DNA from: Rudanella paleaurantiibacter
GTDB lineage: Bacteria; Bacteroidota; Bacteroidia; Cytophagales; Spirosomataceae
DNA length: 42,338 nt
Assembly: GCF_009184635.1 (NCBI RefSeq)
Contig: NZ_WELI01000020.1
Span: 1 to 42,338, forward strand
Direction of reading: 5' to 3'
Shown: positions 1,948 through 25,878 of the stretch, one piece after another
How the letters are laid out: every line of letters starts with the position of its first letter
How positions within the stretch are numbered: position 1 is the stretch's first letter
The notes under the pieces: generated by a model
Databases searched by the model: none
The model's input: only the letters and a program-made list of their open reading frames with translations
Told to the model about the DNA's origin: nothing
Translations under genes and position numbers: made by a program

Positions 1948-2013
1948 CAAAGGTCGGGTGGTGAATTCCCGGAAGCTATAACACGAGGTTGTACTTTAGT
2001 CCATCTGGTTATA
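1948..2013 (-). promoter_or_regulatory. Regulon promoter A (direct repeats + -33/-7)
   Basis: In minus-strand sense: TATAACC (2007-2013), TACAACC (1987-1993; 20-bp period), 8 bp, TAG (1976-1978, at the -33 position), 20 bp, GACCTTTG (1948-1955, -7 box nAnnTTTG). A start near 1941 would leave about 33 nt before ATG 1908. The repeats overlap the last codons of the HECTH gene. The layout is identical to promoters B, C and D. Confidence 0.72.
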
Positions 2014-3144
2014 AGACACTGCCATTATCCGGTCGGTGTAGGTTTGGCGAAGCTGCTCGGTTCCGTTCGCCGACGCCAAAACGGCCAGATCCGTCAAACA
2101 CAACGCATCCATTCGGCAGGCCCCGTCCTGGTCAGAACGCATTTCGCCCGCATGGGTATCGAAGTGATCAATCGTATCGATGGCTCGTTTGATGAGGCCC
2201 GTGAGCTGCCCGAAGCTCTCTGTCGAGAGTTGAGCGTTGCCTACATAGTTTTCTAACCGCGCTCCTTTCCGGTAAACCGGGTAATTTTCGAGTCCCATAA
2301 ACGCCAGCATCCACTCCTTTCGGAAATGGCCTGCCGCTTTGCAGATGCCCATGTAGTCGGCCACAAGCTCATCGTGCAGATTGTTGGATGCCGAGCCAAA
2401 TCGGTTGAGTGTGTAGAGGTGCGTGCATTCGTGCTCGAGCCGTATTGCCAGCGAATACGATGCCCACTGGTCGGGGTCTACGCCCACCTGTTCGGCCGAC
2501 ACGTTGCTGTAGGGTTTGGTGCTCAGAATAATCAACTTGTCCTTGTACAAGCTGCGATCCGGCAGCACATGGCGCGTAAACTGTTCATTCCAGCTGCCCA
2601 CCTGTTCGGTCGACTCCCACTCGGTTTTCAATCCGCGAATCCGTTCCCAATTGTTGACACCGTTGACCAACAGCGCACCCATCGACGAGGGAACCGTCAC
2701 CGGGTTGTTTTTGTGGAGAAGACACTGCACGAGCCTGACAAAATCGGCATCATCGGGCACAGTCAGAACCGGAACCGGACCGGCAAGGCTTTCGTGGAGC
2801 GTCAGTCGCAGGGCTTCGAGCTGTTTCAAGGCCGGCGAACGTTCAGCGTACTCACCCAACGGCTTGCCTTTCAGTACGGTATCTATGTAAGCCTGTGTTT
2901 TGTTGATGCCCTCTGCAACAGGAAAGTTTAGTTGTGGATAGCACGTTTTCAGGAACGCAAACGCCCTATCCCCAGCCCAATCGGATGCGTGATTCTTCCA
3001 AAAGCGGATGGCTGGTTCGTCGTCCGAAACGACCTTTAGGCCGTTATCGGACGAACAGAACTTGTTTGCAACATAATCCCTCAGCTCATCGGGTAACTCA
3101 AGCCCGTAACCCTTCACAACTGACTCTGATGCGGTTGCTATCAT
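1996..3144 (-). CDS. Putative zinc-dependent protein with HECTH motif (resembles DUF7005)
   Basis: A 382-residue soluble protein. Residues 238-242 read HECTH inside RLEHECTHLYTLNRFGS, matching the HExxH zinc-protease motif, and DEL VADYMG follows with E259 as a candidate third ligand 17 residues after the motif. From memory this resembles the DUF7005 family found beside NHLP peptide clusters; that identification is tentative. The gene starts 3 bp after the second ABC transporter, so it is co-transcribed with the export genes. A role in leader trimming or peptide degradation is inference. The rest of the protein has no recognised domain and no signal peptide or membrane segment. Confidence 0.75.
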   Translation of the reverse strand: MIATASESVVKGYGLELPDELRDYVANKFCSSDNGLKVVSDDEPAIRFWKNHASDWAGDRAFAFLKTCYPQLNFPVAEGINKTQAYIDTVLKGKPLGEYAERSPALKQLEALRLTLHESLAGPVPVLTVPDDADFVRLVQCLLHKNNPVTVPSSMGALLVNGVNNWERIRGLKTEWESTEQVGSWNEQFTRHVLPDRSLYKDKLIILSTKPYSNVSAEQVGVDPDQWASYSLAIRLEHECTHLYTLNRFGSASNNLHDELVADYMGICKAAGHFRKEWMLAFMGLENYPVYRKGARLENYVGNAQLSTESFGQLTGLIKRAIDTIDHFDTHAGEMRSDQDGACRMDALCLTDLAVLASANGTEQLRQTYTDRIMAVSYNQMD

Positions 3145-3147
3145 GGC

Positions 3148-6063
3148 TTAGGCGATTTGACGTTTGGCCAATTGTGCAAACAGGCTATCTTTTTCCATGA
3201 GCTCGTCGTAGGTTCCTGACTCGACAATGGTCCCCTTGTCGAGTACGTAAATACGGTCGGCATTCTTGATCGTACTAAGCCGGTGGGCAATGATAATCCG
3301 GGTTGCCTGGAGCTTATCTAAGCTCTGCGTCACGGTATTTTGTGTCCGGTTGTCGAGGGCGCTCGTGGCTTCGTCCATAAAAAGCAGTCGTGGCTTGTGG
3401 GCAATGGCCCGCGCAATCATGAGCCGTTGCCGCTGCCCTCCCGAAAATGTTCCGGCCCCCTCGCTCACCACCGTGTGCATCTCCATCGGCATGTGCTTGA
3501 TGTCTTCTTCCATGCCGGCCATACGCGCAGCCTCCCAGGCATCGTCTAAGGTCAGCTCCGAGTTGCCGATGATGTTCTGAAAAATACTGCCCGACATCAG
3601 GGCCCCGTTCTGCAACACAACGCCAATCTGCCGACGCACCAGTTCTCGGTTCATCAAATCAAACGAGTTGCCATCGTAATAAATGGACCCGGCTTCGGCC
3701 TGTTCAAAGCCCAGCAGTAATCGCATGATGGTTGATTTGCCCGAGCCCGAAGCCCCCACAAAGGCAACCATTTCGCCCGGCTTAATCTTAAACGTGACGT
3801 TGTTTAGCACGAGGGGCTGATCTTCCTTGTAGCGGAACGACACGGAATTCATTTCGATTTCCCCGGCCAGTTCGCCCGGATCGACGCTCTGATCGGCCGA
3901 TTCGGTTTCCTCTTCCAGGATCGGCTTCACCCGTTCGTAGAGGGTAATCACATTCAGCGACGTAATCAGGGCCATGCTCAACCGCAAACTGTCGTTCAGA
4001 AACTGATTGAAGGAGGTGATGAACGCCATAAACACCCCGACGGATAGCACCCCGGCTGTCGCATTGGCTGTAGATACGGTGTAGTACAGGAACGCGAAAA
4101 AGAAGATGTTTGTGAGTAGGGGGTAGGACGCGTTGAAAGCCTCCACAAAGTTCTGGTACGTGCCCGAATTGAAGCCCAGCTTTTTTAAGGTCGAAAACTT
4201 ATCGGCCCACAGGGCAAATACCCGCCGTTCGCCACCTGTGATGCGTATCTTGGTAATACCCGACAAAAACTCAAACAAAAACCCCTGAATCTGCCCCTGA
4301 TAGGTAGATACCTCCCGGTCGTACTTGAGCTTTAACCAGCCGATAGTGGTCATAAACAGGGCGGCAAGGAGGCCCAGCCCCACACCCACCCAGGCTAATT
4401 TACTGTCGTAATAAAAGAGAAGAAACAGGTTTACCGACGAAAACGCCCCACTCAACACGGCGGTCATCAGGGTGCTGGAGATAATCTGCCGGATGGAGTT
4501 GATACTCAGCACCCGGTTGGTAAGGTCGCCAGCGGAGTATTTTTTGTAGAATGTGACCGGCAGGCGCAGCATATGGTCCATCATACCGGCTTGCAAATTG
4601 ACGCTCGATTTTGACTCGAGCCGCAGCCGCAGGGCACCCTCCACCAATTGAATGCCCGCTTTGACCAAGGCAATCATAATCAGGATCGCGAATACCTCCA
4701 GATGCAGCGACCGGTCGGCCGTAGGCACCACGTCGTCGTACATAATACCCGACAGGATGGGCACCAGCAGGCCAATCAAACTACCCGCCAAAGCCGCCGT
4801 CATAAGCCATTTGGCGTCTTTTTCGACTCCGCTGATGGCAAACCGGAGCACCTTTTTTACGGAGGTCATCTTGCGGTCGAAGCCCGAAAAAAACATGTAG
4901 CCAATCGGCTCCAGCTTTGCCGCCACCTCATGGTTTACAACCGTTTCGATTCCGGCCGACAAATCCTTCATGACATAGCTGCTCGACGTTTTCTGGAGGA
5001 GCGCGACGGGCGTTTTACCGTCTTTGGTGAAGGCCAGCAGCGGGCCGTTTTCCGATTTCCACCAGGTATCGCGCAGAATAATTTTGCGGATGCGCAGCTT
5101 CGAGCTCTTGGCAATGAGGTGCAGTTGATTGGTGACGTTGTTCTGGTGCGACTCAACGTATTTGGGCTCCTCGAGCGTAAAACCAATCTGATCGCCGATC
5201 GCCTGACACGTCCGAAACAAGAGATTTTTTCCCTTTTCGGTGAGGTTTGTGGCCCCTTCAGCATTGACCGAGTTCCCCGCCACTACTGATCTGATTTTGC
5301 CGAGGGTGTTCTCCAGGGCCGCCTGATCGTTGGCCTGTTTGATAGATAGGTGATTGCTCTCTTCAGCCTGCTGCGTGGCAATTGTCTGGTTGATCTGACT
5401 ATAGAAATAGCTCTCTAACTTGCTCAGAGCCAATAGAAAGTAAATTTCATCCTGCAACAGGATTTCCCGTGTACTCAACACGCGCACAACGGTATCCTTC
5501 GTTCTGGCTCTCAGCCACAGCTTATTCGACACAGGGGCCAGGAAGTCCTGGTACTGTTCGTGGCTCACCTCTGTACTTTCGGCATACAGGCCCACGGTTC
5601 CTTTCTGCAAATGAATCCAGTGGATACCTGATGACGGGAACGCCACCGTATTTGCGTCCAGGGCAATATCCCCAAACTGGTCGAGCGGTTTGTAAACGCG
5701 GGGTGCCTGCGCCGTGTTAAGGGCGGCTGAGGTTTTGGTAATCCACTTGTTAATCATATTCTTCAAGAAGAAATGATCAACGTCGAGCAGATTATTCTTA
5801 TCAATGGCCAACAGGGTAGCCTCGCTGGAAAAGGCCAGAAGCCGGGTATTTTCGGTATTATCCTGGGGTAATAAGCTAAATAGTACTTCGCCTTTTTGTG
5901 CGGTGTATAGGTATTTGAGCCGGTGCTGATAATTACCGGCCTCATCAATTTTTGTATAGAATAAATTGACCTCGCCCGAAAGCACCATCCAGAATGTGTC
6001 CGGGCGATGGAGTACATACGGGCTTTCGGCGCAAACGTATATCTTTTGATTGATAGCTGACAT
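3148..6063 (-). CDS. NHLM-type ABC transporter, permease/ATPase (second transporter)
   Basis: A 971-residue ABC exporter resembling NHLM_micro_ABC2 (TIGR03797 type). Residues 1-400 form a long cytoplasmic region; its first 90 residues look like a cyclic-nucleotide/cupin beta roll (FWMVLSGEVNLF) but lack the phosphate-binding cassette. The membrane domain spans about 405-710. The ATPase has Walker A GASGSGKST (770-778), signature FSGGQ (873-877) and Walker B LLFMDE (893-898). There is no C39 peptidase domain. Spacing is 11 bp from the C39 transporter upstream and 3 bp to the HECTH gene downstream, so one transcript is likely. In NHLM loci this protein pairs with the C39 transporter and an HlyD protein to export leader-cleaved peptides. 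Confidence 0.92.
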   Translation of the reverse strand: MSAINQKIYVCAESPYVLHRPDTFWMVLSGEVNLFYTKIDEAGNYQHRLKYLYTAQKGEVLFSLLPQDNTENTRLLAFSSEATLLAIDKNNLLDVDHFFLKNMINKWITKTSAALNTAQAPRVYKPLDQFGDIALDANTVAFPSSGIHWIHLQKGTVGLYAESTEVSHEQYQDFLAPVSNKLWLRARTKDTVVRVLSTREILLQDEIYFLLALSKLESYFYSQINQTIATQQAEESNHLSIKQANDQAALENTLGKIRSVVAGNSVNAEGATNLTEKGKNLLFRTCQAIGDQIGFTLEEPKYVESHQNNVTNQLHLIAKSSKLRIRKIILRDTWWKSENGPLLAFTKDGKTPVALLQKTSSSYVMKDLSAGIETVVNHEVAAKLEPIGYMFFSGFDRKMTSVKKVLRFAISGVEKDAKWLMTAALAGSLIGLLVPILSGIMYDDVVPTADRSLHLEVFAILIMIALVKAGIQLVEGALRLRLESKSSVNLQAGMMDHMLRLPVTFYKKYSAGDLTNRVLSINSIRQIISSTLMTAVLSGAFSSVNLFLLFYYDSKLAWVGVGLGLLAALFMTTIGWLKLKYDREVSTYQGQIQGFLFEFLSGITKIRITGGERRVFALWADKFSTLKKLGFNSGTYQNFVEAFNASYPLLTNIFFFAFLYYTVSTANATAGVLSVGVFMAFITSFNQFLNDSLRLSMALITSLNVITLYERVKPILEEETESADQSVDPGELAGEIEMNSVSFRYKEDQPLVLNNVTFKIKPGEMVAFVGASGSGKSTIMRLLLGFEQAEAGSIYYDGNSFDLMNRELVRRQIGVVLQNGALMSGSIFQNIIGNSELTLDDAWEAARMAGMEEDIKHMPMEMHTVVSEGAGTFSGGQRQRLMIARAIAHKPRLLFMDEATSALDNRTQNTVTQSLDKLQATRIIIAHRLSTIKNADRIYVLDKGTIVESGTYDELMEKDSLFAQLAKRQIA

Positions 6064-6074
6064 AGGAATAGCGT

Positions 6075-8267
6075 TTATTTCGTCTCGATCAAATGGGCAT
6101 AGACGCCGTTTTTCTTCATCAATTCCCCATGCGTACCCCGCTCTACTACCTTACCGTATTCCATGACGATGATCTCATCACAATCGATGATCGTACTGAG
6201 CCGGTGCGCCACAATCAGACACGTACATCCCCGCTTTTTGATGTTGTCCATCACAATCTTCTCGGCAGTAGGGTCCAGGGCACTCGTGGCTTCGTCCATG
6301 ATCAGAATCGACGGATTGGTTGCCAGCGCCCGCGCGATTTCCAGGCGTTGCCGCTGACCACCGCTGAAATTCGATCCACCTTCCATCACTGAGCTATCGT
6401 ACCCGTCTTTCCGCACCGACACAATGTCGTGAATAGCCGCATCGCGGGCCGACTGAATGATGTGTTTATCAGGAATAGTTGCGTCCCAGAAACTGATGTT
6501 CTCTTTGATGGTTCCGTTGAAAATCAGTACCTCCTGATCAATCACGGCTACCGAGTTCGTGATGACATGCCGGGGGAATTCACTCTTGGGCTTCCCGTCG
6601 AACAAGACCTCACCACTCCAAAGCGGGTACAAGCCGGAAGCAATCTTGGCCACCGTCGATTTGCCACTACCCGAGCCGCCAACCAGCGCTACCCGGCTTC
6701 CGGGCTTCACTTTCAGATTGAAATTCTCGATCAGCGGGGCTATCGTTGTGTTGTATCCGAAGGTGACGTTTCGCATCTCGAAGTAGCCGACCAATTTGTT
6801 CTGGGCAGCCTCCGCCTGATGGGTTGCAATGACAGCGCTGCCTTTAAATTGTTCGTCGGTCTCATAGTTCATCACGTCATCGATGCGACCCATATCACTT
6901 TCGGTTTCGTGCAGCATGGTGCCTACGGCAATCAGCTGGTTTACCGGCCCAATAAAGTTGCCCATCAGGAAGGTGAAGGATACTAGAGAGCCGAGAGTCA
7001 TTTCGCCATCCATAATCCGCAACGCTCCCAGCCCCAAAATCAGGGTGGTCGTCAGGGATGTGATGAGTGGGGGCAGTACGTTCAGCCGGATCGTGAGCCA
7101 GCCCAGTTCCTGCTGAGCGTTCGTAACTTTGGCCATGTAGCCGATCCAGTTGGTGAAGAAGTCGTTTTCGCGGCCCGATGCTTTCAGTGTCTCGATCATA
7201 CTGATGCCCGACGTGGTGGTGCCCAGTAGTTTTCCTGTTTCGTTACTGAGCATCCGGCTCCCGTCTTTCCGTGCCCGCGACACAAACTTCAGGGCAATCA
7301 CGTTTAATAGCGCCATACCAATGCCAATCAGCGTCAGGGGCACATCGTAGGAGAACATCAGCACGGCATAAAACACGACGATGATGACGTTCAGGGCTGC
7401 GTTGGCCAGATCGCCACTCAACAGCCGGGCTACTTTGTCGTTGAGCGACACCCGGTTGCCAATTTCCCCGCTGTATCGCTGGGTAAAAAACGAAATGGGC
7501 AGGTGAAAAACGTGCCAGAGAAACTTACTGGAGGTGGCTAAAGCAAGCTTCGTTTCGAGCTTGAGCAGGTAATACTGCTGAATATAGACCAACACGGCGT
7601 TGATTGCCAGCACGGAGGCCATAATCAGCAGTAGGGGCATGACGAAATCGGCGTGCCCATTAACTAAGTACTTGTCAATGAAGATTTTGATGAACGAGGG
7701 GATCACCAAACCCGGAACAACCAGAAAAAGACTGGCCAGGAGAATGTAAACAATACTCAGCTTGGAATTGGTAATCCGCGACGCCAGCGACGAGGCCAAC
7801 CCCCGCTTTTCGTTACCCTTTTCAAACTGCTCGGTTGGTTTAAACGTGAGCACTACGCCGGTATAAGCCTCGTCGAATTCGTCGTACGTCACACTGTAGC
7901 GCCCCTGGGCCGGATCGCTCAGAAACACCTTTTTCTTGGTAAAGCCCTCCAGCACCAGAAAGTGGTTGAAGTTCCAGAAGATAATGGCCGGAGTCTCGAT
8001 CTGCATCAGCTTCTCCACCGACTTGGCGTATCCTTTCGATTCTAACCCAAACTGTTTGGCGGCTTTGATAATGTTGGTTGCCTTGAGGCCATCGCGCGAA
8101 ACACCACAGGCAATCCGCAGTTTCTCCAGCGGAACAAATTTGCCAAAGTGCCCCAGAATGATGCTGAGTGCGGCTGCGCCACATTCGACGCTCTCCATCT
8201 GTAAAACCGTCGGGACCTTGACCGGGCCGGCCTGTTTCCCAATGGGAAATGTTGTTGTGGTTGCCAT
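6075..8267 (-). CDS. NHLM-type ABC transporter with C39 leader peptidase
   Basis: A 730-residue peptidase/permease/ATPase resembling NHLM_micro_ABC1 (TIGR03796 type). The N-terminal C39 domain has an intact triad: C29 in ESVECGAAAL, H102 in FNHFLVLEG and D118 in SDPAQG. Membrane helices span about 165-450. Walker A GGSGSGKST is at 530-538, FSGGQ at 634-638 and Walker B ILIMDE at 654-659. It should cut leaders after Gly-Gly on the cytoplasmic side and export the core. ATG 8267 is chosen because the frame extending to 8414 overlaps the HlyD gene and adds 49 residues with no family similarity; the real start lies 14 bp after the HlyD stop. It is the likely processing enzyme for all GG-type precursors here. 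Confidence 0.94.
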   Translation of the reverse strand: MATTTTFPIGKQAGPVKVPTVLQMESVECGAAALSIILGHFGKFVPLEKLRIACGVSRDGLKATNIIKAAKQFGLESKGYAKSVEKLMQIETPAIIFWNFNHFLVLEGFTKKKVFLSDPAQGRYSVTYDEFDEAYTGVVLTFKPTEQFEKGNEKRGLASSLASRITNSKLSIVYILLASLFLVVPGLVIPSFIKIFIDKYLVNGHADFVMPLLLIMASVLAINAVLVYIQQYYLLKLETKLALATSSKFLWHVFHLPISFFTQRYSGEIGNRVSLNDKVARLLSGDLANAALNVIIVVFYAVLMFSYDVPLTLIGIGMALLNVIALKFVSRARKDGSRMLSNETGKLLGTTTSGISMIETLKASGRENDFFTNWIGYMAKVTNAQQELGWLTIRLNVLPPLITSLTTTLILGLGALRIMDGEMTLGSLVSFTFLMGNFIGPVNQLIAVGTMLHETESDMGRIDDVMNYETDEQFKGSAVIATHQAEAAQNKLVGYFEMRNVTFGYNTTIAPLIENFNLKVKPGSRVALVGGSGSGKSTVAKIASGLYPLWSGEVLFDGKPKSEFPRHVITNSVAVIDQEVLIFNGTIKENISFWDATIPDKHIIQSARDAAIHDIVSVRKDGYDSSVMEGGSNFSGGQRQRLEIARALATNPSILIMDEATSALDPTAEKIVMDNIKKRGCTCLIVAHRLSTIIDCDEIIVMEYGKVVERGTHGELMKKNGVYAHLIETK

Positions 8268-8281
8268 CTCGAAAAGTCGGA

Positions 8282-9544
8282 TCAGTACAGGTTGAAGAAT
8301 TTCTTGAACGCGGGAACGACAATCGAGATGGGGTTCTCCTGCTTGACGGTGATTTGGCCCATGCACGATGTGCCCTCTTTGATGGCAATATCTGGTCCCT
8401 TCGCCGACGTCCACCGGAAGCCGCTGTGCGATTCGGTGTCCTTTTCAAACTCGACATGCACTTCGAAAAGAGGCCCCAGGGCAAGCAGCCCCTTTGCCAA
8501 CTGATCGTTTTTTACGGAGGTCATCATGCCCTGCTGCGTAATCGGAAAGTCAGAAACGTAGGTAACCTTGCCTTTGATAAAGCCGTATTCCTGGGGCTGA
8601 ACCGTGGAAGGCACCACGAAGGCTTCCATGTTTCGCTTGATCTTCTTGCCATCGTGCGACGGAATATACAGCACCCCCTTCAGGCTAACTAATTGCCCCT
8701 CCTGCCCGTTTTTGAGCTTGAACAGGGGCGTGCCCGGCCCAACCACAACCCCGGCGTCGGTGAGTACCTCCACGACTTCGCCACTGTACGAACTGACAAT
8801 GTTCGACTGAGTGTCGTAGCGTTCGGTCAGGAACTGTAAGCTACGCTCGGCTTCGGCAATCTGCTGCTGCTGGTAGGTGACTTTCTGTTGCATCCCATAG
8901 CCCACATCGTGCTGCCGGCTCGACATCTCGGCCAATTGCCCTTTCAGCCGCTCAATAGTATTTTGGGAAGCGTCGATCTGTTGCTTCGTGTTGGCTACCT
9001 GCGCCTTCACGATCAGCCCTTTTTCGAGCAAATTCACCTCCGATTCCAACTGATTCGACAGGAACGAAAGCTTCTTTTTCTCGGCCTCGATCTCGCCCTG
9101 AATACTGACCCGATTTTGAACAATGAGTTCGCCCTCGAGCGCGGTTCCTTTGCTGCCGTACGAAATGACTTTGTTCAGTTCGTTCTTCTTTTCGGCCACA
9201 ACCGCCCGGGCGTTTTCAATCTGTTGCTGGAGTTCGGGTTGCTGAATCGTAGCAATGACGTCTCCTTTGGCGACCTTATCGCCAATTCGTACGTTCAGTT
9301 TCATCAGTTGCCCCTGAGCGGTAGCCACTACTTCGTGGACTTCGCCCCCCAGTACGACGCCCGTCACATTTAGTTTGGTACTTACTCGTCCAAAGACAGA
9401 CCACGTGATACCCGTGGCCAGGGCAACGAAAACGACCGAGAGTGTAATCCAGGCTTTGGGGCCGGTCACCTTAATTAATTGATCTAATTTTTCGGGTGTT
9501 GACAGCTTCTCTAAGGCTGACTTTCTAAAAAAACCTGCTGACAT
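8282..9544 (-). CDS. HlyD-type periplasmic adaptor (NHLM secretion protein)
   Basis: A 420-residue membrane fusion protein resembling NHLM_micro_HlyD (TIGR03794 type). It has one membrane helix (about residues 31-52), a barrel-sandwich/lipoyl segment (GGEVHEVVATAQGQLMKLNV followed by GDKVAKGDVI), a long coiled coil (about 110-240) and the returning lipoyl half (YSGEVVEVLTDAGVVVGPGT). It should bridge the inner-membrane ABC transporters and TolC. It sits 11 bp downstream of the tolC-like gene and 14 bp upstream of the C39 transporter gene, forming a complete type I peptide secretion operon. Confidence 0.92.
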   Translation of the reverse strand: MSAGFFRKSALEKLSTPEKLDQLIKVTGPKAWITLSVVFVALATGITWSVFGRVSTKLNVTGVVLGGEVHEVVATAQGQLMKLNVRIGDKVAKGDVIATIQQPELQQQIENARAVVAEKKNELNKVISYGSKGTALEGELIVQNRVSIQGEIEAEKKKLSFLSNQLESEVNLLEKGLIVKAQVANTKQQIDASQNTIERLKGQLAEMSSRQHDVGYGMQQKVTYQQQQIAEAERSLQFLTERYDTQSNIVSSYSGEVVEVLTDAGVVVGPGTPLFKLKNGQEGQLVSLKGVLYIPSHDGKKIKRNMEAFVVPSTVQPQEYGFIKGKVTYVSDFPITQQGMMTSVKNDQLAKGLLALGPLFEVHVEFEKDTESHSGFRWTSAKGPDIAIKEGTSCMGQITVKQENPISIVVPAFKKFFNLY

Positions 9545-19423: not shown

Positions 19424-19492
19424 ATATAAAACAGATTCGAAATGTACTATATTCTCAATGGAATCTTAATGTTTTTCGAATCCGTTTTATAT
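19424..19492 (-). terminator. AT-rich hairpin between the precursor genes and the 50-aa gene
   Basis: Arms at 19424-19442 and 19474-19492 pair over about 18 bp with one mismatch (core GATTCGAAA / TTTCGAATC). On the minus strand the right-to-left stem is followed by a T-rich stretch (ttatttt), as in an intrinsic terminator. It also lies within the 5' leader of the 50-aa frame. Confidence 0.45.
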
Positions 19493-19516
19493 CTAAATGA
19501 TTAGTATTAAGTAGTC

Positions 19517-19624
19517 AGACAGAATTAAATGTAAAATGAATAGTGCAAAATGGACAATGAGATGACTGATTATCAGCAGGTAATACAATTGTTCATTATA
19601 CATTATACATAGTTCATTCACTTA
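19517..19624. repeat. ~100-bp imperfect palindromic repeat, copy 2
   Basis: Direct-orientation copy of 11786-11886. It shares agacagaattaaatgta at the start, ctgattatcag in the centre and ttc..cactta at the end. The right half carries the tandem motif cattatacattataca. The two copies bracket the AraC, VKOR, LanM-half and glycosyltransferase genes. The 330-bp gap 19404-19733 otherwise holds only the hairpin at 19424-19492. Confidence 0.7.
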
Positions 19625-19733
19625 AAAATAATTTATTTGATAACCAGACGACGTCAGAACGTTGGCTTATAGCATACGCCTTAACGATTTGATAACGTCT
19701 ACATTGACAAATTAATTATATATCAATATGTTA

Positions 19734-20135
19734 TTATTTGTTAATAATAACAGTAGTGTTATTATTAATAGTAGTGTTTCCACCACTATCACCACTACCA
19801 CTAGCCCCACAATATCCAATAACAACTCCTACCAGAAAAACCCCCCCAACTACACAAAGTGGAGTACTACCTCCAGCAACCATCTCTAACTGTTCATCAG
19901 TTAGTTCTAGTTCAATAAAATCCGGTTTCTCAGGGATATTGAGGTAAACAGTACTACTATTACTTTGATCCTCAACAACAATTCTCTGTTTTCCACTTTC
20001 AAGACTAATGGATCTTCCAATAAAGCTTTCTATTGTCGGAATAGGGCTACTTAGAAGACTTTTTTTAAATGATTCATCCTTCCAAGATTGTGAAATTAAT
20101 TTGTAATAAAGATCTTGATTCTCTGCAACGTTCAT
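19734..20135 (-). CDS. NHLP-leader precursor peptide 1 (STPLCV core)
   Basis: 133 residues. Residues 1-89 are a nitrile-hydratase-like leader (NHLP): a helix with QSWKDESFKKSLLSSP, a beta part VVEDQSNSSTVYLNIPEKP and the end LTDEQLEMVAGG (Gly-Gly 88-89). The 44-residue core starts STPLCV, has a hydrophobic Gly/Val stretch with a second Cys, and ends in a Ser/Thr/Asn-rich tail (GGNTTINNNTTVIINK). It has many possible dehydration sites and two Cys that could form a disulfide or lanthionine. The first six core residues are the same as in precursor 2, which suggests duplication and a shared processing rule. It is the last gene of the precursor array. Confidence 0.87.
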   Translation of the reverse strand: MNVAENQDLYYKLISQSWKDESFKKSLLSSPIPTIESFIGRSISLESGKQRIVVEDQSNSSTVYLNIPEKPDFIELELTDEQLEMVAGGSTPLCVVGGVFLVGVVIGYCGASGSGDSGGNTTINNNTTVIINK

Positions 20136-20141
20136 GATTTT

Positions 20142-20282
20142 TCAAATTTTTGATCGTTTAACTACTTCCCCTATTTTTCTACCAACTATAACACCTGCTG
20201 CAAGCAAAGCAATACAAGCTGCCACATACCCAGCATACAGATACCAAGGAGCAGATTTTAGACCATCCAGTAACAATATCAT
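20142..20282 (-). CDS. Leaderless core-like small membrane peptide
   Basis: A 46-residue frame starting 8 bp after the stop of precursor 2. Its middle (YAGYVAACIALLAAGVIVG, then RKIGEVVKRS) resembles the core of precursor 2 (YAAYAVILIGVLAAGVTVGE), but it has no NHLP leader and carries a basic C-terminus instead of a free tail. It could be an immunity peptide mimicking the product, a membrane anchor, or a duplicated core that lost its leader. It was identified by reading the sequence; coding is supported by the similarity and the tight spacing. Confidence 0.6.
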   Translation of the reverse strand: MILLLDGLKSAPWYLYAGYVAACIALLAAGVIVGRKIGEVVKRSKI

Positions 20283-20290
20283 AGATATTA

Positions 20291-20665
20291 TTACTTAACA
20301 GCATTCCCTAATGATTCACCAACTGTGACACCTGCTGCTAATACACCAATCAAGATTACAGCATACGCAGCATATCCAACACACAAGGGAGTAGAACCAC
20401 CCGAAACTGTTTCTAACTGTTCATCTGTTAGTTCTAACTCATCAAATTCAACTTTTCTTGGAATATTTAGATAGATAACAGAATTATCTGTTTGATCCTC
20501 TACTACAATTTTTGTGTTTGGTGTTATAGCTTGCCCCGTAACCGATTCAATTGTAGAAACTGGATTTCTAATCAATTGCTCTTTGAAAGTTGAACTCTCC
20601 CAAGCCTTTTGCGCTAAAGTTCTTACTAACGTTTCCGCTTGTTTTTGCTGTTCTTGCGTCATCAT
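20291..20665 (-). CDS. NHLP-leader precursor peptide 2 (STPLCV core)
   Basis: 124 residues. The NHLP leader (1-90) includes LAQKAWESSTFKEQLIRNPV and VVEDQTDNSVIYLNIPRK and ends LTDEQLETVSGG. The 34-residue core begins STPLCVGYAAYAV and continues as a hydrophobic helix-like Gly/Ala/Val stretch (ILIGVLAAGVTVGE), ending SLGNAVK. Its single Cys and composition recall hydrophobic pore-forming bacteriocins. The leader is close to those of the neighbours while the core differs strongly from peptides 3-5. Two ATGs are adjacent; the first is used here. Confidence 0.88.
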   Translation of the reverse strand: MMTQEQQKQAETLVRTLAQKAWESSTFKEQLIRNPVSTIESVTGQAITPNTKIVVEDQTDNSVIYLNIPRKVEFDELELTDEQLETVSGGSTPLCVGYAAYAVILIGVLAAGVTVGESLGNAVK

Positions 20666-20707
20666 AATTGTTATGTTTTATGTGTTTTTAAATTAGAAAC
20701 AATACCA

Positions 20708-21058
20708 TTAGTCGTTTGCTGGTGGTAGACTTGTAGTTGGTGATGTTGGGGGAATATGGAAAGGTAAACTTACAATAATGGCTGTTGTAAGAGTACCACC
20801 TGCAACAGCTTCTAGTTGTTCTTCATTAAGCTCCAAATCCTCCGTATTAGGCTTAGCTGGAAGGTTGATGTACACCGTGCTCTGGTCTGTCTGGTCACGG
20901 ACAACCAGCGTCTTGCCTTCGGGCAGGTTAAGCTTCTGGCCCGTCAACTTTTCGATTGCAGCTACAGGGCTAGCCATTAACTCACTCATAAACTGGGCAT
21001 CTTCCCATGCTTTTTGTACGATCTCGCCGTACATTTTTTGCTCTTGTGTAAATTCCAT
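20708..21058 (-). CDS. NHLP-leader precursor peptide 3 (Thr/Ser/Pro core)
   Basis: 116 residues. Leader 1-88 (FTQEQKMYGEIVQKAWEDAQ, then VVRDQTDQSTVYINLPAKP, ending LNEEQLEAVAGG) is nearly the same as that of peptide 4. The 28-residue core (TLTTAIIVSLPF, then HIPPTSPTTSLPPAND) has no Cys and many Thr, Ser and Pro, a good target for dehydration or O-glycosylation and unable to form lanthionines by itself. This fits the presence of a dehydratase without cyclase and two glycosyltransferases in the cluster; that link is inference. Confidence 0.9.
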   Translation of the reverse strand: MEFTQEQKMYGEIVQKAWEDAQFMSELMASPVAAIEKLTGQKLNLPEGKTLVVRDQTDQSTVYINLPAKPNTEDLELNEEQLEAVAGGTLTTAIIVSLPFHIPPTSPTTSLPPAND

Positions 21059-21089
21059 TTTTTGAGATAACTGCTTAAATAAGAATAAA

Positions 21090-21446
21090 TTAATATTGAA
21101 CCGTCTTGTCAGGGACCGGGAAAGTTGGTGTTGGCTTCAAAATATCAATGATATCAAAGATTGTCCCACCTGGAAACGTAGCCCCTCCTGCTACAGTTTC
21201 GAGCTGCTCTTCATTTAACTCTACATCCTCAGTAGCGGGCTTAGCAGGAATGTTGATGTACACCGTAGACTCATCAGTCTGATCGCGTACCACAAGGGTT
21301 TTGCCCTGGGGTAGGTTGAGCTTTTGGCCGGTTAGTTTCTCAATAGCACCCACCGGATCAGCCATCAATTCACTCTTAAACTGTGTGTCCTCCCAGGCTT
21401 TCTGTACAATTTCTCCGTACAATTTTTGCTCTTGTGTAAACTCCAT
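21090..21446 (-). CDS. NHLP-leader precursor peptide 4
   Basis: 118 residues. The leader begins MEFTQEQKLYGEIVQKAWED and ends LNEEQLETVAGG (87-88), very similar to peptide 3 at both protein and DNA level, so the two arose by recent duplication. The 30-residue core (ATFPGGTIFDIIDILKPTP, then TFPVPDKTVQY) shares almost nothing with the core of peptide 3 except a Pro/Thr tendency. It has no Cys. A second Gly-Gly occurs at core positions 5-6. Spacing to peptide 3 is 31 bp. Confidence 0.9.
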   Translation of the reverse strand: MEFTQEQKLYGEIVQKAWEDTQFKSELMADPVGAIEKLTGQKLNLPQGKTLVVRDQTDESTVYINIPAKPATEDVELNEEQLETVAGGATFPGGTIFDIIDILKPTPTFPVPDKTVQY

Positions 21447-21479
21447 TGTTTTGTTTGTTTTGGTTTATTTATAGATGTA

Positions 21480-21809
21480 TTATAGGGTAATGCAATCGTT
21501 GAGGTTTGGGAACAAGTTTCGGATAAAGTCGCCCCAAATTCTTTGCCCACCGCCCGCAACCGCTTCGAGTTGCTCTTCGGTCAGTTCCATGTTTTCAATT
21601 TCGGGTTCGGCGGGAATGTTTACGTAGATCGTGGACTTGTCGGTTTGATCCAAAAACACTAAACTCTTTCCCTCGGGTAGGACCACTTTAACGCCAGTCA
21701 GTTTTTCAATTGCCTTTACTGGGTCAGCTATCAGCTCCGTTTTGAAATTCGCGTCTTCCCAGGCTTTTGAGATGACAGCCTCTATGATTTCTTGTTTTCT
21801 CTGTTCCAT
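21480..21809 (-). CDS. NHLP-leader precursor peptide 5, first of the array
   Basis: 109 residues from ATG 21809; the frame extending to 21875 adds 22 residues that do not fit the family start MEQRKQEIIEAVISKAWEDA. The leader ends LTEEQLEAVAGG (86-87). The 22-residue core is GQRIWGDFIRNLFPNLNDCITL, amphipathic with one Cys and two aromatic residues. A possible -7 box (TAGCTTTG in minus sense, 21828-21835) lies just upstream, but no TTG is correctly spaced and the A-D type repeats are absent, so the array seems to be controlled differently from promoters A-D. Confidence 0.88.
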   Translation of the reverse strand: MEQRKQEIIEAVISKAWEDANFKTELIADPVKAIEKLTGVKVVLPEGKSLVFLDQTDKSTIYVNIPAEPEIENMELTEEQLEAVAGGGQRIWGDFIRNLFPNLNDCITL

Positions 21810-22030
21810 ATCTTTATTTGTATGATACAAAGCTATCTTTATACTTTCTGACGAATTTGCCAAATTGACTGTCAAAAGTGTCTACCCATATCTTTCTAGT
21901 TATCAGGTAAATAGCGCAAGCTTTGCAGATAACAGGGTAGGTTGTAGGTAGTCGCTGTTCAGGAAACAGTCGGCAGAGGCCCGACTCAACAACTGTTTGG
22001 TATCCTGAGTCGGTTAATGCGAAACTTCTG

Positions 22031-22285
22031 TTATTGGACCGTGTTCCGTCGGCTGATTTCAGCCTGGATGTTCTTTAACCTTTTAGAATATACGTTTCCT
22101 ATCAGGATGGCAGCAATCACCAACATGTAAGTGAGGCTAGAACCGTTGTGTGTAGCCGACCAAATGGCGATACCAGTTAATACCCCTATGAATAGAGCCG
22201 TTGGCATCTTCCATGATTTCAACTTTTTCTCCGCCGACACTAACTCATCAGGCGTCATTTTTGAGTAAATTTCTTCTGTTTTCAT
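22031..22285 (-). CDS. Small two-helix membrane protein (paralogue 1)
   Basis: 84 residues. It starts MKTEEIYSKMTPDELVSAEK, has two hydrophobic helices (MPTALFIGVLTGIAIW and YMLVIAAILIGNVY) and ends KRLKNIQAEISRRNTVQ. It is paralogous to the proteins at 24711-24974 and 24987-25244, sharing the (K/R)xLxELxxxE start and the IQAEI-x-x-R end. Bacteroidota proteins of this shape are often labelled redox-active disulfide protein 2, yet no Cys is present here. It begins 28 bp after the cyclase stop, so it is probably in that operon. Confidence 0.75.
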   Translation of the reverse strand: MKTEEIYSKMTPDELVSAEKKLKSWKMPTALFIGVLTGIAIWSATHNGSSLTYMLVIAAILIGNVYSKRLKNIQAEISRRNTVQ

Positions 22286-22313
22286 AGCACGATTTGGGGA
22301 ACGTATTCACCAA

Positions 22314-24302
22314 TTAAGCGACCAACTGAGCTACAGCGCTTTTCTCAACGAAGTACATCGCTATATCGCCTTTGCCTTTTGCATTAACGCTACCTCGGTA
22401 CTCGAAGCTGAAGCACGGTTCATCCTTTATTAGTTGATACAATGTCTCACTGATATTAACCTTTCCTACCTGGCTACTACTCTCCATACGGCTGGCGGTA
22501 TTGACCGTATCGCCCCATATGTCGTACTGGAATTTCTTCACCCCGACGATCCCGGCAACAATTGGCCCCGCGTGTATGCCCAGGCGCATCTCAAAAGCCG
22601 GACGGCCCATACTTCTGTTCTCATCCGCTCGCTGCGTCATAAACGACTGCATCTCCAGGCCGGCCAACACAATGTTCTTCAGTGAATTCTCATCGGCGTG
22701 GGGGATGCCGCCGGCGGCCATGTAGGCATCGCCAATGGTTTTTATTTTTTCAATCTCATACTTCTCCGTGATCAGGTCAAAAGCCCGGAAGCAGATGTTT
22801 ATCTCTTCCACCAAACTCTGGGGGGTCATCTTCTCGGCGGTCTGTGTGAACGACTTGAAGTCCGTAAAGAGTATGGACACTAAGTTGTAATCGCGGGCAT
22901 TTACGCTGCCTTTTTCTTTCAGTTCCTCGGCTATCTCCTGGGGCAGAATATTCAGCAGCAGGGCCTCAGAGCGGTCTTTTTCAAGTTTTATTGCCGCTCT
23001 CGACTTCCTGACAAAGTTGAGTTGGCCCCACAAACCGACGGCAACCAGGACTATAAAGCACAGCGATAGAATGATTAGGTTACGCTGCTTCTCGCGTCGC
23101 TGCACCTCCTCTTTGTGCTTTAGTTGAATCGAGTGTTCTTTCTTGACATAGGCAATGCTATCGACCAACTGCTGCTTCTGAAACTCTATGCCCATCACCT
23201 TGTTTGCTGCTTCCGCTAAGTTCAGACTGTCTTCAAACGCATTAGTCTGCTCATAATAGCGAAGGGCCTGTTGCGTATTTCCGAGCGCTTTATGTGATAA
23301 ATACAGACACTCGCATCCCCGTTTTTTCATGGGTACCGAACCCACTTTTTCGGCTAATTGTAATCCGTCCTGGCATTTTTTCACTGCGTCTCTACTCTTA
23401 CCCAGCCGGTGCATAATAGTACCAATAGCCACTTGCGCTTCAGCTTGATTTTGCAAACTACCAATCTGATCTGAGTAGTTTAGGCAACGCGTGAAATAGG
23501 GTAGTGCTCGGGCATAATCTGACTGCGCATAAAATAAATCACCTAAGCTGGACAGGGCCATTACTTGTAGCTGCTTATCCTGTTTCTTGTTAGCGACTCG
23601 TAATGAGTTAGTCAAATTTTCATACGCGCTCTTGTAATTGCCTTGCTTTGCATAAATATTTCCTATCTCATTCAGTACCTGAGCTATTGCCTCCTGATCA
23701 CCTTGGACTGTATGAACAGTAAAAGCTTGGCCTAAATATTTTAGAGCATTGTTGTAATCTTTTACCTTAGAGTATACGGAGCCTATATTCTGAGTAGTCG
23801 CAGCTAAATTCTTTGTATCTCCCATTTTATCGAACAGAAGAGCAGCCTGTCGGAAATGATCCAACGCTTCCAGATAGTTTCCCTGGCTCTTATATACAGC
23901 ACCTAGATTATTTAATGTTGAAGCAACCCCTTTCTCAAACTTTATCTTTCTGAAAGCTTCTGCTCCTTTCTTAAAATTGATAGCGGCTTTTGAAAAATCG
24001 CCTAAGTAAAAATGGGTTACCGCCATTAAATTGAAGCAATCTCCCTGTTTCTTACCATCTCCAATACGCTGATACATATCCAGGCTTTTTTCAAACAGCA
24101 ACAAGGATTTGTTATAGACTTGCGTATTGTAGTAGTGCGAACCCAGTTCAAAGAGGCTATCGGCTACCTCCTTATTGCGAGTTGCTGTTACATTCACAGA
24201 AGTGGCTGTCTTCTGTTTCAAGGTGGATTGTGCATACAGTTTCGCTTCTATACAATTTGATAGAATGATTACCAACGATATGCACATCCATGACCTTGTC
24301 AT
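22314..24302 (-). CDS. TPR-containing transmembrane class III adenylate cyclase
   Basis: 662 residues: a signal/anchor segment (1-25), about seven TPRs (45-355), a coiled region, one membrane helix (409-426) and a class III cyclase domain (470-650). Metal Asp residues are D481 (FTDFKSFT) and D525 (KTIGDAY). K521 and D594 (QYDIWG) are the adenine-specifying pair, and N601 and R605 (VNTASRM) are the transition-state residues, so it should make cAMP. The TPR part would lie in the periplasm and the cyclase in the cytoplasm. Its ATG overlaps the stop of the 58-aa mini NHLP-like peptide (ATGA), which implies translational coupling. It is transcribed from promoter B. A role as peptide sensor is a hypothesis based on the coupling and the TPRs. 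Confidence 0.92.
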   Translation of the reverse strand: MTRSWMCISLVIILSNCIEAKLYAQSTLKQKTATSVNVTATRNKEVADSLFELGSHYYNTQVYNKSLLLFEKSLDMYQRIGDGKKQGDCFNLMAVTHFYLGDFSKAAINFKKGAEAFRKIKFEKGVASTLNNLGAVYKSQGNYLEALDHFRQAALLFDKMGDTKNLAATTQNIGSVYSKVKDYNNALKYLGQAFTVHTVQGDQEAIAQVLNEIGNIYAKQGNYKSAYENLTNSLRVANKKQDKQLQVMALSSLGDLFYAQSDYARALPYFTRCLNYSDQIGSLQNQAEAQVAIGTIMHRLGKSRDAVKKCQDGLQLAEKVGSVPMKKRGCECLYLSHKALGNTQQALRYYEQTNAFEDSLNLAEAANKVMGIEFQKQQLVDSIAYVKKEHSIQLKHKEEVQRREKQRNLIILSLCFIVLVAVGLWGQLNFVRKSRAAIKLEKDRSEALLLNILPQEIAEELKEKGSVNARDYNLVSILFTDFKSFTQTAEKMTPQSLVEEINICFRAFDLITEKYEIEKIKTIGDAYMAAGGIPHADENSLKNIVLAGLEMQSFMTQRADENRSMGRPAFEMRLGIHAGPIVAGIVGVKKFQYDIWGDTVNTASRMESSSQVGKVNISETLYQLIKDEPCFSFEYRGSVNAKGKGDIAMYFVEKSAVAQLVA

Positions 24303-24475
24303 CCGATAATCAATTTATTCCCATCACCACCACCTGATATAATATCTAACTGCTCTTCGTTCAGCTCCATGTCCTCCAGGTTTGGCTCGGCTGGGGGGGT
24401 ATTCGAAATGGTTGACGCGTTCGTTTGGTCAACGCTGACCGACTGCTTGTCTTTGGGGGTGTTCTGTGCATTCAT
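24299..24475 (-). CDS. Mini NHLP-like peptide coupled to the cyclase gene
   Basis: A 58-residue frame. Residues 16-49 (VDQTNASTI, then PPAEPNLEDMELNEEQLDII, then SGG) match the C-terminal part of the NHLP leaders (DQTDKSTIYVNIPAEP, ELTEEQLEAVAGG), but the N-terminal helix is missing and only nine residues follow the Gly-Gly (GDGNKLIIG). The stop codon overlaps the cyclase ATG by 4 bp. It is the first gene after promoter B. Possible roles are a secreted signal peptide of 9 residues, a decoy leader, or a degenerate precursor. Coding is supported by the leader similarity and the overlap. Confidence 0.72.
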   Translation of the reverse strand: MNAQNTPKDKQSVSVDQTNASTISNTPPAEPNLEDMELNEEQLDIISGGGDGNKLIIG

Positions 24476-24589
24476 GCTTTTGTCCGTTTATGTTGGTTTG
24501 GCACAAAGTTGTTCAGCTACTTCCTGACAGAACTGACAAAAAAACGGTCAAAACTTCCAATCGGCGAAAACCTCATTAACTCACTGTTT

Positions 24590-24655
24590 CAAAGGTAGGC
24601 TGGGTTCGTTGCGTGCTCAATAACTTCCGGTTGTAGTTTATTCCATTTGGTTATA
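24590..24655 (-). promoter_or_regulatory. Regulon promoter B
   Basis: Minus-strand order: TATAACC (24649-24655), TACAACC (24629-24635; 20-bp period), 8 bp, TTG (24618-24620), 20 bp, TACCTTTG (24590-24597). This is a perfect match to the Bacteroidota -33/-7 consensus TTG / TAnnTTTG. A start near 24583 gives a leader of about 108 nt before the mini peptide. Confidence 0.8.
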
Positions 24656-24710
24656 GGATATAACTTCGGTGGTTAATGGTGTGTACAAAACTCATTGCCG
24701 TGTAAAATGG

Positions 24711-24974
24711 CTATGCCGAACTTCTGCTGCTAATTTCCGCCTGAATGGCTTTCAGGTCATTCCCCTTTTTGTTGGCCCCGGCTGCCAGCAGTGCAATCAG
24801 AATCAACAACGCAGAATGCCGGAAGCCAATCGAATAGAACGCGAAAGCATAAATCAAAATGCCGAAAGCTATGCCAACCATAGCTGTGAGAAAAGAGGCC
24901 TGTTTCTTAATCCTGGCTTCCTCACCGGTTAACTCTTCCAGCGTGAGTCTTGAGTAGGTTGTGTTCGCGTCCAT
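24711..24974 (-). CDS. Small two-helix membrane protein (paralogue 2)
   Basis: 87 residues: start MDANTTYSRLTLEELTGEEA, hydrophobic helices LTAMVGIAFGILIYAFAF and HSALLILIALLAAGA, end NDLKAIQAEISSRSSA. The C-terminus is nearly the same as in paralogue 1. It begins 12 bp after paralogue 3, so they share the transcript from promoter C. Function is unknown; immunity or membrane adaptation to the exported peptides is possible but unproven. Confidence 0.75.
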   Translation of the reverse strand: MDANTTYSRLTLEELTGEEARIKKQASFLTAMVGIAFGILIYAFAFYSIGFRHSALLILIALLAAGANKKGNDLKAIQAEISSRSSA

Positions 24975-24986
24975 AATTTCGTGCTG

Positions 24987-25244
24987 TTAAATAACCCGAT
25001 TCCGGGTTTGCAACTCTTTTTTCACTGCTCTTATATCATTTATACAAAGAAATAAAATCGGCGACAGCGCAAATGGCATAATCATCAGGGGGAGTCCAAC
25101 CGAGGAGTTCTCCTTAATAGATAAATTGATGGCCAATATCAGTAGCGCTACAAGCATTCCAGCTAATATACCCGTTACCAGTACTGTTGTCTTTTTTCGT
25201 TTGAGTAACGCTTCGTCACTCAAGTCCTGAATTTTCTGACTCAT
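24987..25244 (-). CDS. Small two-helix membrane protein (paralogue 3)
   Basis: 85 residues: start MSQKIQDLSDEALLKRKKTT, helices VLVTGILAGMLVALLILAI and LPLMIMPFALSPILFLCI, end VKKELQTRNRVI. This is the copy closest to proteins annotated redox-active disulfide protein 2 in Bacteroidota, although it carries a single Cys. It is the first clear gene after promoter C, with a long leader of about 226 nt that contains the hairpin at 25295-25320 and a 32-codon frame ending in TAATG with this ATG. Confidence 0.75.
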   Translation of the reverse strand: MSQKIQDLSDEALLKRKKTTVLVTGILAGMLVALLILAINLSIKENSSVGLPLMIMPFALSPILFLCINDIRAVKKELQTRNRVI

Positions 25245-25343
25245 TACGCGACTGATTTATTGGTTAGACTAAGTTGCCATTTCGGGTAGAAGTTCTCCCC
25301 CGCGTATTGGCGCGGGGGAGTTTCTATACCTGCTTTTATCACC
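25244..25343 (-). CDS. Possible 32-aa leader ORF (GTG start) overlapping paralogue 3
   Basis: In minus sense a GTG at about 25341 opens a 32-codon frame (IKAGIETPPRQYAGENFYPK, then WQLSLTNKSVA) whose TAA overlaps the ATG of paralogue 3 (TAATG). An in-frame stop lies just upstream. The strong hairpin falls inside it. The overlap is suggestive of coupling or a leader peptide, but the GTG start has no evident ribosome site, so it may be chance. Confidence 0.25.
25295..25320. terminator. 10-bp GC hairpin upstream of paralogue 3
   Basis: CTCCCCCGCG (25295-25304), loop TATTGG, CGCGGGGGAG (25311-25320): a perfect 10-bp stem. On the plus strand TTTCT follows, on the minus strand no T-run follows. 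No plus-strand gene ends here. Because it lies in the long 5' leader driven by promoter C, an attenuator or mRNA-stabilising element is also possible. Confidence 0.5.
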
Positions 25344-25476
25344 TGTATGAATTACTTTGTATGATTTCCGGCGTAGCTATTGTGCTACCCAGGGCACTCT
25401 TATTAGTATGTTTACTAGTAGAACCCGTATGAATGATCTATCTATTTTGCTTACTTTTTATTTCGTTTTGCCTATA

Positions 25477-25542
25477 CAAAAGTGGGCACCAACCACGCAG
25501 CGATCAAAAACCTCAGGTTATAGTTTATTCCGTCAGGTTATA
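25477..25542 (-). promoter_or_regulatory. Regulon promoter C
   Basis: Minus-strand order: TATAACC (25536-25542), TATAACC (25516-25522; 20-bp period), 8 bp, TTG (25505-25507), 20 bp, CACTTTTG (25477-25484). It drives the two small membrane protein genes with a leader of about 226 nt. The 312-bp gap 25245-25556 contains only this promoter, the hairpin and the possible 32-aa frame. Confidence 0.75.
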
Positions 25543-25556
25543 ACGCGGCTGCGGTA

Positions 25557-25736
25557 TTAGGCGGCCTCGTCGTACTGATAAAGCGGCTCATCTGTTGGCA
25601 GCTCCATACCGTCGAATAAGTCGCCGGCCGATACCATCCAGTTGTCGTCGAACGAGCCAATTTCATCGGCCATTGAGTCCGCATCGTTATTGATCCATAC
25701 CTCAAAGGAGAACTCCGGGTTGATGTGCTTTTTCAT
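25557..25736 (-). CDS. 59-aa acidic peptide downstream of LanB
   Basis: Starts MKKHINPEFSFEVWINNDAD, continues through EIGSFDDNWMVSAGDLFDG and ends LPTDEPLYQYDEAA. It has no Cys, no Gly-Gly and no membrane segment, and is strongly acidic. It has its own promoter D, lies 157 bp after the LanB stop and shares promoter architecture with the GG-leader peptides. It could be the LanB substrate or a leader-type peptide to which residues are added, but no known leader motif is recognised, so this is inference. Confidence 0.65.
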   Translation of the reverse strand: MKKHINPEFSFEVWINNDADSMADEIGSFDDNWMVSAGDLFDGMELPTDEPLYQYDEAA

Positions 25737-25792
25737 GAGCGTATCCGTTTAGAAAGCCATTATTACGTCTTGTTTGTGCTTGTTTGTCCATT

Positions 25793-25878
25793 CAAAATTG
25801 GCCGTATTTCCCCCCGTTTTCAATAACTATTGGTTGTATTATAATCCATTTGGTCATAGTTTATTCCGCCAGGTTATA
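25793..25878 (-). promoter_or_regulatory. Regulon promoter D (three repeats)
   Basis: Minus-strand order: TATAACC (25872-25878), TATGACC (25852-25858), TACAACC (25832-25838), each 20 bp apart, then 8 bp, TTG (25821-25823), 20 bp, CAATTTTG (25793-25800). It has one more repeat than A-C. A start near 25786 gives a leader of about 50 nt before the 59-aa peptide. Confidence 0.78.

Follow-up and report, generated by a model that had tools for sequence, protein, structure and literature searches.

Tandem palindromic promoters of a peptide gene cluster in Rudanella paleaurantiibacter and a small XRE protein as their probable activator

Four promoters of common layout lie on the minus strand of a 42,338-base-pair (bp) stretch of DNA, the whole contig NZ_WELI01000020.1 of Rudanella paleaurantiibacter (genome 6.72 Mb), referred to here as the window. 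The four sites probably constitute the promoters of one regulon activated by an 80-amino-acid (aa) XRE protein encoded on the same contig (HTH_3 domain, Cro/CI type; 31917..32159, plus strand), with a LytTR response regulator probably standing one tier up. In an earlier note, made from the sequence alone, the sites had been read as direct repeats abutting a -33/-7 promoter, with the LytTR and AraC-type proteins of the cluster suggested as binders. The promoter architecture proved to be real and conserved, whereas the regulator is reassigned here to XRE. The sites, their geometry, their symmetry and their co-occurrence with the candidate regulators were computed directly.

Operator anatomy and promoter geometry

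Both strands of the window were searched with the 66-bp layout TAYDACC-N13-TAYDACC-N8-TTG-N20-NANNTTTG, which matched on the minus strand only, the next-best listed place carrying 5 mismatches. Site 2 (24590..24655), site 3 (25477..25542) and site 4 (25793..25878, with the match at 25858-25793) showed 0 mismatches, and site 1 (1948..2013) showed a single one, TAG in place of TTG at -33. Thus, the four places reported earlier were recovered, three of them exactly, and the spacing described as invariant held throughout, although the -33 triplet is not constant. Each site joins tandem operators to a -33/-7 promoter, and site 4 has three operator units in 20-bp steps, its third repeat lying 20 bp upstream (25878-25852). 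Two of the sites have the middle segment ggaataaac, previously presented as conserved, without change, as does the additional upstream unit of site 4; the other two sites read ggactaaag and ggattataa. Orthologues of site 1 are present in four relatives (G001, G194, G189 and G201; G and L numbers are our handles for genomes and loci). The left operator of site 1 (1997-2013, minus strand) also forms the last codons and stop of a DUF7005 gene (Y-N-Q-M-D-stop), and such coding/regulatory overlap at the DUF7005 3' end was seen by eye in relatives as well.

Genome-wide, the repeat pair by itself gave 9 matches, of which 5 fell in the window (the four sites, one being triple) and 4 were scattered and devoid of the GGA-TAAA core; the reversed-pattern control gave 1. 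When the full layout was searched with up to three mismatches, the genome held 4 matches, all of them on the 42-kb contig, and the reversed control held 0, so that the random scatter envisaged in the earlier note as a contrary outcome was not what was found. A position matrix run on the window scored the four sites at 61-71 bits and no other place above 4 bits, in agreement with the former statement that the large NHLP array lacks the motif; in the same scan no copy was found upstream of the kinase and regulator genes or of the lantibiotic dehydratase (LanB) gene.

The comparison was extended to a family set of 222 genomes, from which stretches around clustered motif copies were fetched. The repeat-plus-core pattern with up to two mismatches occurred in 81/222 genomes, many of them by chance, and its copies were clustered in several. 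The full-layout genome pattern caught 55 of 59 strong sites at up to three mismatches and gave 0 matches in 1.12 Mb of background. At three mismatches it also matched, in six Dyadobacter-group genomes (G065, G070, G080, G082, G085 and G098), a near-identical sequence, TATACCTC-T-rich-ACTAAAACC...GTTTTTGATTATG, that looks unrelated. With an iterated position matrix and a threshold of 24 bits, 62 stretches yielded 99 distinct sites (104 in a larger pool later) and the reversed sequences 0. The scan of related genomes that had been proposed thus yielded about 100 sites before peptide, exporter and lipoprotein genes.

The consensus of the 99 sites reads TATaaCC-N4-Ga-TAaA-TA-AAC-N5-GTTaTTGA-N20-gAccTTTG. 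It is composed of two imperfect palindromes in tandem, their centres 20 bp apart, approximately TATAAC-N5-GAATA followed by TAnAAC-N5-GTTnT, the right one running into the -33 TTG. The arms of this right half form the inverted repeat A-n-AAC-N5-GTT-n-T and vary at the same position, and the information content on one side of the dyad mirrors that on the other (1.86/1.86, 0.31/0.62, 1.65/1.80, 1.40/1.86 and 1.11/1.46 bits). Because of this mirroring, the plain direct-repeat reading was dropped and replaced by tandem palindromes: the heptamer does recur at 20 bp, as had been noted, but its copies are the left halves of two adjacent palindromes. The left half takes the form TATAAC-N5-GAATA or the mirror form TATTCC-N5-GTTATA, the latter mostly before HlyD genes, and in 18 places of the motif-bearing loci a TATAAC unit lies 20 bp further upstream.

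The distance from the right palindrome to the -7 box is nearly fixed. Across the motif loci (810 kb), 64 places had one distance, with one place each at +1 and +2, 0 at 11 other spacings and 0 at any spacing in 1.58 Mb of control loci; since the stretches were picked by the fixed repeat period, and some by the full layout, this spacing test is not fully independent. The palindrome spacer was 5 bp in 64 places and 2 bp in one. At -33, TTG was found in 89/104 sites and TAG in 11/104. In the -7 box, TTTG and an A are near invariant and the first T (-12) occurs in about 6% of the 99 sites; compared with the Bacteroidota sigma-A promoter TTG/TAnnTTTG invoked earlier, TTTG is kept and the first T is mostly missing. 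When the box is placed at positions -12 to -5, where PMC9723704 puts it for Flavobacterium sigma-A, the operator centres fall near -42, -62 and -82. An operator near -42, in fixed phase to the core promoter, has the geometry of a class II (lambda CI-like) activator site, which bears out the suggestion that the elements abut the -33 as activator sites do.

The direct regulator of the sites

As judged from comparative sequence data, the direct regulator is probably the 80-aa XRE protein rather than LytTR or AraC, and for XRE this role is well supported by the comparison. A relative of the LytTR protein (E ≤ 1e-60) was detected in 64/222 family genomes and one of XRE (E ≤ 1.2e-20) in 35/222. The motif, with up to two mismatches, occurs in 26/222 genomes, all 26 of which have XRE and 24 of which have the LytTR relative. 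Sorted by genome class, it was present in 24/29 genomes with both genes, 2/6 with XRE only, 0/35 with LytTR only and 0/152 with neither. Among the fetched loci, a site above 24 bits was found in 31 of 37 that contain XRE (tblastn E ≤ 1e-20) and in 0 of 17 that contain LytTR (at least 43% identity) and lack XRE. Additionally, 65 of 79 sites (up to two mismatches) lie within 20 kb of XRE, and some others stand on stretches without XRE in genomes that encode it elsewhere (e.g. L136, L138, L156 and L160), where it would act in trans. In a broader set of 390 genomes, XRE (E ≤ 1e-17) was found in 17 family members and in two genomes outside the family, G290 and G485 of the Hymenobacter group; these two were also the sole carriers of the motif (up to one mismatch) among 304 genomes outside the family in an overlapping set of 380.

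The XRE protein belongs to the XRE/Cro-CI family by its HTH_3 match (PF01381; E 1.9e-12, 47.5 bits versus a cut-off of 23), and its AlphaFold model (mean pLDDT 93.6) comprises six helices. Foldseek neighbours of this model include DdrO, ClgR, C.AhdI, P22 c2, 434 Cro, SinR, ComR and CylR2, none of them at E ≤ 1e-3, and a sequence comparison with PDB returned one entry (E 0.001). The segment SQAAYSKKE around the recognition helix is invariant in 31 aligned relatives; distant relatives with other recognition-helix residues (L188-L190) have no sites.

A rival explanation, which is considered quite unlikely, holds that the LytTR protein binds the TATAACC repeats directly, XRE being a mere neighbour or having other targets. 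It would account for the LytTR and kinase genes lying in the cluster and for the 24 motif genomes in which the LytTR relative was found, and, according to PMC6193735, LytTR proteins act from direct repeats just upstream of -35. Against this, the motif at up to two mismatches is missing from every LytTR-only genome mentioned above and a site from every such locus, and in five loci (L150, L152, L182, L185 and L187) the stretch carries sites and XRE but lacks LytTR; a LytTR gene is present elsewhere in the genomes of L150, L152, L185 and L187, and that of L182 (G057) has none at E ≤ 1e-60. The same paper describes LytTR sites as 9-bp direct repeats with mostly 12 bp (11-13) between them, a layout that does not suit the TATAACC repeats, which have a period of 20 and are each half of a palindrome, and that does suit a second repeat discussed below. 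On these presence/absence grounds, the former proposal of LytTR as direct binder was rejected as the best reading. The AraC-type or the cyclic-nucleotide-binding (cNMP) protein could also be the regulator, both being encoded in the window, and AraC sites can be direct repeats; this is regarded as very improbable. A full-length AraC orthologue (E ≤ 1.2e-100) was found in 5/28 genomes, all 28 of which carry the motif, the next-best match being at 3e-15, and AraC, also named as a binder before, was set aside for this reason. The cNMP protein has the Pfam cyclic-nucleotide domain alone and occurs in few motif loci, no genome-wide search having been made for it.

Several points weigh against the assignment to XRE. 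The E threshold for XRE was chosen at a gap once the list had been inspected, and the Fisher values (1.3e-26 for motif and XRE, 5.8e-13 for motif and LytTR) overstate independence, the genomes being related. When three mismatches are allowed, the motif appears in 26/29 genomes with both genes, 8/35 with LytTR only, 3/6 with XRE only and 3/152 with neither; 6 of the 8 LytTR-only matches are one recurrent, unrelated sequence. Moreover, 30 sites are nearer XRE and 40 nearer LytTR, and distance does not separate the two because their genes are usually adjacent. Six XRE loci have no site above 24 bits (L159, L162, L163, L183, L184 and L186); the right palindrome with its promoter is present in L159 and L184, and L162 and L163 (G071 and G094) contain XRE, LytTR and LanB with no site, even with a relaxed pattern. 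Of the two genomes outside the family, G485 (H. elongatus) had given one site to the matrix, leaving G290 alone fully out of sample. Finally, the arms of the right palindrome showed no covariation at the variable position (Fisher p = 1.0).

Proposed mechanism and predicted targets

From this comparison, we infer the binding, the activation, the cascade and its signal as follows. XRE dimers would bind the tandem palindromes side by side, and the proximal dimer would touch sigma-A/RNA polymerase and activate a promoter that is weak alone, the first T of its -7 box usually missing, as lambda CI does at PRM. Activation is argued for by the combination of fixed phase and weak core promoter. It is instead conceivable, if unlikely, that XRE is a repressor at these sites, like many small Cro/CI proteins, and that the cascade relieves repression, since the proteins that resemble the model in structure are mostly repressors or mixed regulators (DdrO, P22 c2, 434 Cro, SinR and CylR2). 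However, the proximal operator stands in one phase to the -7 box in 64 of the 66 places matched by regular expression, as expected for polymerase contact, whereas repressor sites could shift freely or cover the -7 box or the start; in addition, the promoters look weak. Activation by XRE would reach precursor or signal peptides, exporter genes and small lipoproteins and, in the window, also an RNA.

The LytTR gene (30936..31748, minus strand; Pfam Response_reg and LytTR) diverges from the XRE gene and is accompanied by a sensor histidine kinase gene (29758..30930, minus strand; PF06580). Control of the XRE gene by the kinase/LytTR pair is probable and would run through a repeat, TTGGTCGAA-N12-TTGGTCGAA, in the divergent intergenic region, where relatives carry the direct repeat ATTGGTCGAA-N-ATTGGTCGAAATA. 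Among pairs of TTGGTCGAA-like halves, a period of 21 is by far the commonest, with 121 pairs versus 12-46 at other periods, and five shuffled-half controls gave 8-18 pairs at that period. The repeat fits the 9-12-9 layout of LytTR sites, its letters differing from the published repeats, and is thus a candidate LytTR site. In a scan of the 300 bp upstream, a matrix of this repeat exceeded 15 bits before 26/37 XRE genes; among random 300-bp segments, up to 4,000 in number, the highest score was 16.6. The matrix was built from 26 seeds of the same loci that were scored, which tells against the result. Equally unfavourable is the weakness of the window's own copy, the diverged TTTGCCGAA-N12-TTCGCCGAA (31806..31835, plus strand), proposed as the LytTR box before XRE, whose score of 13.2 lies above the 99% point (4.0) and below the 99.9% point (14.9) of the random segments. 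The second repeat also occurs before several x121-LanB operons and upstream of LytTR in 6/17 LytTR-only loci, in one of which its score of 16.4 is lower than the random maximum. These data suggest a cascade from kinase to LytTR to XRE to peptides, although the evidence for the LytTR-XRE tier is weaker than that for XRE and its palindromes.

A closed, positive loop of two tiers is entertained tentatively and with more doubt than belief: a GG-leader peptide, exported by a C39 transporter, would be sensed by the kinase and, through LytTR and XRE, would raise its own expression and that of the other peptides, the exporters and the small RNA. This GG-leader peptide, of the EELMKSLA type, would be linear, with no cysteine in the cores seen. 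In L130, L132 and L155 (G193, G199 and G206), a peptide of this type with its own operator promoter lies directly behind XRE and beside LytTR/kinase, a com-like arrangement. Two tandem or split kinase matches beside LytTR were observed in L130, L132, L146, L149, L151, L153, L169 and L170, the window having one kinase gene.

The target of site 1 is an 84-aa GG-leader peptide of the EELMKSLA type (1654..1908, minus strand), a candidate signal peptide, which is followed on the same strand by a 136-aa protein (1172..1582) resembling, by eye, a 141-aa CPSYIAKPGA family whose genes are preceded elsewhere, in other loci, by a motif promoter of their own. Behind site 2 lie a 58-aa GG peptide (24299-24475) and a TPR adenylate/guanylate cyclase (22314-24302), together spanning 22314..24475 on the minus strand. 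One activator had been proposed earlier for peptide and sensor genes alike; the local regulon with its peptide targets stands, and among sensor genes the cyclase alone, behind the 24655 promoter, belongs to it, the kinase and regulator genes having no motif copy. Site 4 precedes a 59-aa acidic peptide (DDNWxVSAGDLF; 25557..25736, minus strand). The 19 sequences of this peptide family are conserved right up to the C-terminus and have no cysteine, unlike a typical lanthipeptide precursor, though the gene stands beside LanB (25894..28980, minus strand; assigned by domain match).

Site 3 had been described as the promoter of two small membrane-protein genes (open reading frames (ORFs) at 24987-25244 and 24711-24974, minus strand), but alignment places a conserved, apparently non-coding RNA (25285..25476, minus strand) first, and the idea that site 3 serves the membrane proteins only was given up. 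The RNA shares 70-82% identity with copies in G001, G194, G187, G189 and G201, and in the sister genome G001 the first membrane-protein gene is missing and both promoter and RNA are present. Stops occur in the frames inspected, the 3' end forms a strong hairpin, CUCCCCCG...CGGGGGAG, and the fold energy is 3.9 standard deviations below that of shuffles (z -3.9), with 0/200 as low. Covariation gave no support (1/18 pairs changed on both sides; covariation term +1.36), and Rfam gave no match at gathering level in the window. The transcript may represent a small RNA or a structured leader.

In the relatives, the first gene behind each of the 104 sites was classified by regular expression, so that the classes are approximate. 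They comprise 17 peptides of the 59-aa type, 17 other GG-motif peptides, 17 small lipoproteins, 13 HlyD-type exporter proteins, 9 EELMKSLA-type GG peptides, 5 members of the 141-aa CPSYIAKPGA family, 3 of a 215-aa secreted family, 2 of an acyl-carrier-like family and 18 others, with 3 sites having no ORF within about 300 bp. In one genome, the same motif promoter and lipoprotein gene occur twice, 2.7 kb apart (G203:C1 7048013 and 7050678), a recent duplication.

The cluster as a whole encodes LanB, a DUF4135 LanM-type dehydratase domain, GG/NHLP peptides, C39-ABC and NHLP exporters, the cyclase, the kinase and LytTR, and is adjoined by a 2936-aa ORF (32825-41635, plus strand) that by eye appears secreted and repeat-rich. 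In Spirosoma oryzicola (L223, NZ_CP089546.1), the orthologous cluster resides on a 98.5-kb circular plasmid, and the window, a whole 42-kb contig, may be plasmid-borne too. LanB clusters in Spirosoma linguale were noted in an older survey (PMC3091789).

Relation to known systems

The present comparison provides a named candidate activator and an exact operator, and it predicts about 100 target promoters in genomes of the Spirosoma, Dyadobacter and Hymenobacter groups. To our knowledge, little is known of what regulates peptide clusters, lanthipeptide ones included, in Bacteroidota, and peptide-signalling circuits in this phylum are, in our view of the field, poorly documented. Searches of the open PMC literature on XRE or LytTR control of lanthipeptides or peptide signalling in Bacteroidota, judged by titles and abstract openings and with subscription papers and preprints outside the scope, listed nothing on this motif or circuit. 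The motif flags unannotated peptides, lipoproteins and an RNA as cluster members, and overexpressing XRE might switch on clusters that are silent; should the upper tier prove right, a concrete peptide-signalling circuit would be at hand for Bacteroidota.

Among known systems, the C proteins of restriction-modification systems (C.AhdI, C.Csp231I) are likewise small XRE proteins with two tandem palindromes upstream of promoters, and the structure search with the XRE model returned C.AhdI. C.Csp231I sites have 5-bp arms and a 5-bp spacer, with operators 33 bp apart, according to PMC4321490, and this arm and spacer layout is that of TAnAAC-N5-GTTnT. The present sites differ in sequence, in operators set 20 bp apart and in the many target promoters and, unlike with C proteins, the motif is absent from the XRE gene's own promoter in the window. 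No restriction or methylation genes were found among the scanned window proteins or annotated beside the S. oryzicola cluster, which sets the XRE protein apart from C proteins. CylR2, the XRE repressor of the enterococcal cytolysin lanthipeptide, is also a small XRE protein tied to a lanthipeptide locus and was returned by the structure search. However, it is a repressor and is not known for paired operators abutting many promoters.

The LytTR bacteriocin and competence circuits (ComDE, HdrRM/BrsRM) resemble the cluster in having kinase/LytTR genes beside GG-leader peptides and a C39 exporter, and the candidate 9-12-9 repeat described above adds to this likeness (PMC6193735). By contrast, the peptide promoters here carry the sites of a second, XRE-type factor. 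The nearest two-tier parallel is the passage from ComDE to ComX, in which a sigma factor occupies the place that XRE would hold here. As for the promoters themselves, phage lambda CI exerts class II activation at PRM from an operator at -42, and shares with the present sites the tandem palindromic operators, the proximal one near -42 meeting the -35/-33 element. Unlike lambda CI, the XRE protein has 80 aa and no separate C-terminal oligomerisation domain, its operators are 20 bp apart, and the promoter would be of the Bacteroidota sigma-A type. The system is one of parts of known kind in a new arrangement.

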